Assembly: GCF_002573715.1 (NCBI RefSeq)
Contig: NZ_PDHM01000002.1
Coordinates: 1 to 56,469 of the forward strand
From: Paenibacillus sp. EZ-K15
GTDB lineage: Bacteria > Bacillota > Bacilli > Paenibacillales > Paenibacillaceae
Direction: 5' to 3'
Length of the DNA stretch: 56,469 bases
Part shown: positions 9,509 to 9,684 of the stretch, in pieces
How the letters are laid out: each line of letters opens with the position of its first letter
Numbering within the stretch: position 1 is the first letter of the stretch
Position numbers and translations under genes: made by a program
The notes under the pieces: model-generated
Seen by the model: only the letters and a program-made list of their open reading frames with translations
The model's database searches: none
Told to the model about the DNA's origin: nothing

Positions 9509-9684
9509 ACTAAAGTCTCCTTTCACAGCCCGTTAAAACCCTGTATTTATACCCAATGTTCAACGAACATTTATTCGTTTGTTAACATGTTGTGGACAGA
9601 ATTGTGTATAACTAAAATATTATGCACAAAGTTATGCACATTATCCACAGATAAGTTGTGTATTTGTGCGCAATCTGTGGATAC
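9471..9684. promoter_or_regulatory. Cluster of DnaA boxes
   Basis: Perfect matches to TTATNCACA occur at 9603-9611 (minus strand), 9620-9628, 9632-9640 and 9641-9649 (plus). The last two abut. TGTGGATAC at 9676-9684 has one mismatch, and a further perfect TTATCCACA lies inside the tadA start region at 9471-9479. A possible promoter for the downstream kinase, TTGTGG (9590-9595), 17 bases, TAAAAT (9613-9618), is covered by these boxes. Two interlocking palindromes at 9555-9579 lie just upstream. The rest of 9685-9871 shows nothing I recognise. Confidence 0.8.

Follow-up and report, generated by a model that had tools for sequence, protein, structure and literature searches.

What does a compact cluster of DnaA boxes do between a gene for a tRNA deaminase and a gene for a sensor kinase, and which of the two genes does it serve? 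The question arises in Paenibacillus sp. EZ-K15, in a stretch of 56,469 nucleotides (here called the window; the 7.26-Mb assembly has 34 contigs, of which it is number 32) in which the cluster separates the following two genes:

9014..9508, minus strand: tadA, tRNA adenosine(34) deaminase (NCBIfam TadA, 187.6 bits with a cut-off of 150; Pfam deaminase domains)
9872..12166, plus strand: HAMP-PAS-HisKA-HATPase sensor kinase (Pfam; best PDB match 3d36, Sporulation kinase B)

A first-pass annotation of the window had proposed that DnaA represses the kinase gene from these boxes and thereby ties entry into sporulation to the initiation of replication. Comparison of the locus across related genomes points to the other neighbor: we consider it likely, with a probability of roughly 0.55, that the boxes and an adjacent LexA-like block (9564-9684) form tadA's own control element, at which both DnaA and LexA would act.

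RESULTS

DnaA boxes in the window

The window contains nine perfect DnaA boxes (TTATNCACA), where 1.53 were expected and none of 100 shuffled sequences reached nine. When one mismatch was allowed, 58 boxes were counted versus 41.6 expected, a mild enrichment that 3 of 100 shuffles also attained. The boxes reported by the first-pass annotation were recovered and exceed chance: perfect boxes start at 9471 (+), 9603 (-), 9620 (+), 9632 (+) and 9641 (+), and a one-mismatch box starts at 9676 (-). Four of the perfect boxes indeed fall within 47 bp (9603-9649), and those at 9632 and 9641 abut. Comparison with relatives added three degenerate boxes with two mismatches each, at 9591 (-), 9657 (-) and 9665 (-), which gives the following array (counts are for 99 genomes of the genus):

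9471..9479, plus strand: perfect DnaA box within the 5' coding part of tadA (motif scan)
9591..9599, minus strand: DnaA box A, two mismatches in the window; perfect in 53 genomes, at most two mismatches in 98
9603..9611, minus strand: DnaA box B; perfect in 84 genomes, one mismatch in the remaining 15
9620..9628, plus strand: DnaA box C; perfect in 76 genomes
9632..9640, plus strand: DnaA box D; perfect in 41 genomes, one mismatch in 58
9641..9649, plus strand: DnaA box E, abutting D; close relatives only
9657..9684, minus strand: left-pointing flank boxes F1 (9657, two mismatches), F2 (9665, two) and F3 (9676, one)

At least one left-pointing flank box with no more than one mismatch was found to the right of box D in 92 of the 99 genomes (F2 in 79, F3 in 27, F1 in 13), and 28 of them have a perfect plus-strand box 60 to 200 bp leftward of box A. 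In 12 of the 99, right-pointing boxes follow one another at a 12-bp pitch in this same interval, into the tadA coding sequence. The locus thus has near-consensus boxes within 200 bp that are nonrandom and conserved, as in DnaA-box clusters outside the origin. An open reading frame that overlaps the boxes (9587-9862) gave no match in a Pfam search.

Rigid geometry of the array

Boxes A to D are arranged as left-12-left-17-right-12-right, and this layout was exact in 99 of 100 genomes of the genus (the region upstream of the kinase was compared in 94 and that upstream of tadA in the other six). The 99 genomes fit the layout with 1 to 4 mismatches across 32 specified positions; among the alternative offsets listed for the same locus, the best has at least 9. 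The single exception, G042, which retains only a remnant of the kinase, has a central gap of 18 bp instead of 17 bp. Loss of the boxes in relatives, the outcome that the first-pass annotation had named as refuting its proposal, did not occur. In 41 nonredundant loci, the box columns carried 1.62 bits of information, compared with 0.35 for the spacers and 0.50 for the flanks. The letters of the spacers drift while the exact spacing from A to D stays, which we count in favor of a control element of tadA.

A LexA-like block next to the array

A block of the form CGAAC-RNNY-ATTCG, absent from the first-pass annotation, sits 26 to 27 bp to the left of the DnaA array and is followed by a second conserved motif:

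9564..9577, no strand assigned: LexA-box-like CGAACATTTATTCG; its form matches the recA operator, and CGAACN4ATTCG is exact in 149 of 169 tadA loci
9579..9587, no strand assigned: conserved TTGTTAACA, a candidate degenerate DnaA box or -35 element (comparison of tadA loci)

The Gram-positive LexA consensus is given as CGAACN4GTTCG (PMC4551915) or GAACN4GTTC (PMC4234289) in the parts of these sources that were available. The tadA block resembles such operators in its CGAAC half-site, 4-bp spacer and TTC half-site and in the R and Y at the ends of the spacer. It differs from them by an A for G at the tenth base, so that the full palindrome CGAACN4GTTCG is not matched in the window or in most relatives; the recA operators of this lineage carry the same A. 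Indeed, CGAAC-RNNY-ATTCG was the form of the recA operator in all 30 Paenibacillus-family genomes inspected (59 had a recA match), and elsewhere in those 30 loci the motif was absent (30 hits in 243,402 strand-bases). In sequence type, the tadA block thus agrees with the recA operator found in the same genomes. In the genome under study the motif occurs at four places, namely, the tadA block, about 70 bp before recA and twice inside open reading frames, and LexA is encoded in this genome. The promoter region of lexA (L298) is itself crowded with five LexA-like 14-mers with one or two mismatches, 58 to 160 bp before the gene.

Phylogenetic range of the four-box core and of the wider module

A search for the four-box core over 50 bp, tolerating 3 mismatches at most, found it in 111 of 197 Paenibacillus-family genomes and 13 of 19 genera, at one place per listed genome, and the reversed pattern used as a control had no hit in the same 197 genomes. 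In a sample across the order, the core was found in 59 of 88 genomes of the family versus 0 of 110 from other families.

A module consisting of the LexA-like block, TTGTTAACA and the tandem boxes A and B precedes tadA in 165 of 169 loci, a set that counts some genomes twice under two names. Within the 165, TTGTTAACA was exact in 91 and had at most one mismatch in 142. The four misses were G288, G281, G278 and, by its spacing, G305 (two from family f8, one from f5 and one from f6). The module reaches beyond the core: it was present in 26 of 30 further loci, which represent six families of the order and were drawn from genera and families lacking the core (14/14 in the Paenibacillus family [f1], 9/10 in f6, 1/1 each in f2, f7 and f10, 0/2 in f8 and 0/1 in f5). 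tadA was matched in 36 of the 38 genomes of this outer sample, and the counts cover 30 loci. The strict LexA pattern was found in 16 of the 30, and of the 14 loci without it, 10 came within one mismatch and one within two. In these other families boxes C and D are often missing; A and B stay.

Among 80 named tadA loci, all nine that we place in the Paenibacillus family, one of them deposited as Bacillus sp., carry the strict LexA pattern and three of the nine the four-box core; the core was found in none of the other 71, which had one isolated LexA-like match. A search of 200 genomes of the class found the module in at least 7 of the 17 from the Paenibacillus family and in none of the other 183, the former being a lower bound because the search used one fixed spacing that misses the window itself.

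Constant and changing neighbors

The genes around the boxes encode IMPDH, a D-Ala-D-Ala carboxypeptidase, the SNZ/SNO pair, seryl-tRNA synthetase, TadA, the kinase and an RluF-type pseudouridine synthase. The start of tadA was read as TTG at 9508, behind the ribosome site AAAGGAG; the mechanically called open reading frame starts at GTG 9526. Two RNAs in the window scored above the Rfam cut-offs, a c-di-AMP riboswitch (18158-18297, minus strand) and a large bacterial SRP RNA (52037-52303, plus strand).

If the array served the kinase, the two should stay together. By E value, an ortholog of the kinase was found in 95 of 100 genomes of the genus, and at the same place. All five genomes without an intact kinase have nevertheless kept the array, four of them between tadA and the pseudouridine synthase and one beside a kinase remnant. 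Outside the genus, none of the 21 array loci of genus g13 had a kinase match in the 1.5-kb flank, and all nine loci of genus g18 had one; tadA adjoins the array in all 30. The right-hand open reading frames elsewhere differ among the 14 loci listed. In two genomes, G062 (contig C25) and G063 (contig C34), two pieces in different frames match the kinase; the gene is either broken or affected by a sequencing error, and the array is kept.

Predicted promoters on either side

Promoter scans gave one candidate for each of the two genes:

9716..9744, minus strand: predicted tadA promoter, TTGCTA-17-TACAAT
9788..9816, plus strand: predicted kinase promoter, TTTTCA-17-TATCAT

In 107 nonredundant right flanks, TACAAT occurred in the leftward direction in 76 and in the rightward direction in 7, which ranked it first among 60 hexamer permutations, and TTGNNN usually stands 16 to 17 bp before the leftward TACAAT. 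A promoter score of at least 9 was reached by 74 of 107 leftward strands but also by 58 rightward ones, and shuffling the 107 flanks still left 21 at that level; taken alone, the score is weak evidence, and the hexamer count discriminates better.

In the rightward direction, TTTYCA-N16/18-TATSAT (TTTTCA or TTTCCA with TATGAT or TATCAT) was the best candidate in 80 of 94 genomes. It ends 50 to 73 bp before the kinase start and begins 84 to 428 bp beyond box D; in the window, it lies 103 bp beyond the last box. The first-pass annotation had the boxes overlap the best kinase promoter, but the window has two equal rightward candidates, 9593-9621, which is made of the boxes, and 9788-9816, and only the second is conserved. 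With a predicted leftward promoter beyond the array and a separate one for the kinase, the array and the LexA box fall within the predicted leader of tadA, and the array lies outside the kinase promoter. One feature counts against this leader model: the LexA box would lie about 60 to 140 nt downstream of the predicted tadA transcription start, an odd place for a LexA repressor. A nearer leftward promoter, with TTAACA as the -35 element and the LexA box in the spacer, was sought by eye, but a consistent -10 element was not found.

DISCUSSION

Which reading fits the locus

Control of the kinase by DnaA, as proposed in the first-pass annotation, has in its favor the conserved position of the kinase, a catalytic part that is sporulation kinase-like and an array that lies no more than 300 bp from most kinase starts. 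The term "sporulation-type kinase" holds insofar as Sporulation kinase B is the best solved relative, but all NCBIfam kinase models stayed below their cut-offs. The distance from the array to the kinase start varies from 213 to 562 bp. Since the array persists where the kinase is lost and the kinase has its promoter outside the array, we rejected control of the kinase as the main role and consider it very unlikely; the constant neighbor is tadA, and the kinase is probably a right-hand neighbor with its own promoter and not the target. The situation of sda, with an array at the promoter of a sporulation gene and kept together with that gene, was not found here.

A different question is whether the array acts on any neighbor at all. 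It might be a chromosomal site that regulates DnaA itself, by titration or by resetting of the bound nucleotide, as do the Bacillus subtilis clusters, datA and DARS; it would then be kept near oriC so as to be copied soon after initiation, and its position at tadA would be incidental. In the Paenibacillus family it has about 7 to 8 boxes at rigid spacing, a number that a purely tadA-directed role leaves unexplained by itself, and six B. subtilis clusters jointly restrain initiation, according to the accessible text of PMC5295017. The cluster is also close to oriC: the element lies 84.9 to 142.1 kb from dnaA (median, 95.5 kb; measured from the kinase start or the array core) in all 50 genomes examined, which were selected for few contigs, always on one and the same arm and with the same orientation. 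In the source genome, dnaA is on another contig (L001) than the window. Proximity to oriC by itself is no proof of a role in replication, however, since tadA may be origin proximal for other reasons. Moreover, the LexA box at a fixed distance belongs to a wider module, in which other families often dispense with C and D, and the DARS1 spacing is not matched. A DnaA-regulating site would explain the array but leave the LexA box unexplained, and we regard this explanation, the main alternative to control of tadA, as rather unlikely.

The array might also act as RNA. Boxes A and B form an inverted repeat with C and D (9-bp arms, 3-nt spacers and an 8-nt center) inside the predicted leader, and a hairpin there could be an attenuator or riboregulator of tadA, with the likeness to DnaA boxes as a by-product. 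Covariation in 54 loci argues against it: the two N positions, which the DnaA consensus leaves open, paired no more often than with shuffled partners (0.46 versus 0.44 and 0.39 versus 0.49), as did the spacers (0.35 to 0.50 versus 0.38 to 0.55), and one box position had a small excess (0.98 versus 0.95). Together with the loss of C and D in families that keep A and B, this makes a hairpin extremely improbable.

A proposed model for the control of tadA

In the reading that we prefer, control of tadA by DnaA and LexA, the leftward promoter at 9716-9744 would transcribe tadA through the array. DnaA would assemble on the rigidly spaced boxes A to D, with help from the weaker flanking boxes, and LexA would bind the recA-type box. 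Both sites would lie within the transcribed leader, where they could obstruct RNA polymerase or mask a second promoter, and the two proteins would restrain tadA transcription or set its timing in step with replication and DNA damage. The output of tadA would then shift once damage led to LexA cleavage or a disturbance of replication changed the amount of free DnaA. Against this reading also speak the A at the tenth base of the LexA box, the 14 outer loci that lack the strict LexA pattern and the 4 of 169 loci without the module.

As a tentative extension, which we hold to be possible but doubtful, TadA may be a member of two regulons, SOS and DnaA, in Paenibacillus and its relatives, such that damage or stalled replication may release LexA, reshuffle DnaA on the tadA leader and cause a burst of adenosine-to-inosine editing. 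If so, the integrity of the genome would be hard-wired to the way in which the genetic code is read (tRNA-Arg wobble decoding and possibly mRNA recoding), and tRNA editing would join what bacteria adjust under replication trouble. One report counts against a tadA-directed role: in Streptococcus pyogenes, stress-dependent editing is largely independent of the tadA level, although editing does rise when tadA is overexpressed (PMC11472039, in the part available).

LexA and DnaA boxes at a mutual fixed spacing before one gene, in many genera and several families, are strong comparative evidence for joint control, and the target would be the enzyme that makes inosine in tRNA and not a repair gene. 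In the literature collection that we searched, we found no report of such an element or of joint LexA/DnaA control of tadA. If the reading is right, the locus offers a compact natural element in which the interplay of DnaA and LexA in Gram-positive bacteria can be studied.

Comparison with known systems

Joint regulation by LexA and DnaA is described for uvrB and recN of Escherichia coli (PMC8203912, available part). There, as here, a LexA site and several DnaA boxes stand before one gene. Here, in contrast, the gene is tadA and not a repair gene, the LexA box is of the Gram-positive type, the boxes form a rigid left-left-right-right array, and the regulation is predicted. In B. subtilis, the available text of PMC12448304 describes separate LexA- and DnaA-dependent responses. 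Clusters outside oriC in that species (gcp/ydiF, ywcI/vpr and sda) are likewise dense arrays of consensus boxes, and the top regions mostly have 7 to 11 sites, a number comparable to that of the tadA array (PMC4447404 and PMC5295017, as far as available). None of the regions listed in those portions is at tadA, and the tadA module differs by its LexA box and in that DnaA binding is predicted.

E. coli DARS1, located between bioD and uvrB, shares with the tadA array opposed DnaA boxes (I versus II and III) and a tandem pair at 12 bp (PMC5742627, accessible part). Its core reads right-14-left-12-left, compared with left-12-left-17-right-12-right at tadA; neither the spacing nor the orientation of the DARS1 core is matched, and we rejected assignment of the tadA array to the DARS sites.

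Three further clusters were seen in G000. One (L002, 1382-1641; contig C14 of G000, about 103.3 to 103.6 kb) has 10 DnaA boxes with at most one mismatch and adjoins an ABC-F ATPase gene resembling ydiF, like the gcp/ydiF cluster of B. subtilis; its boxes at 1382, 1394 and 1408 read right-12-right-14-left, which mirrors the core of E. coli DARS1. A second (L302, 1324-1592; contig C19 of G000, about 197.8 kb) is intergenic and has nine boxes with at most one mismatch, three of them perfect. In the third (L309, 1437-1521; contig C27 of G000, about 10.4 kb), four one-mismatch boxes lie downstream of an open reading frame resembling ribosomal protein S9.
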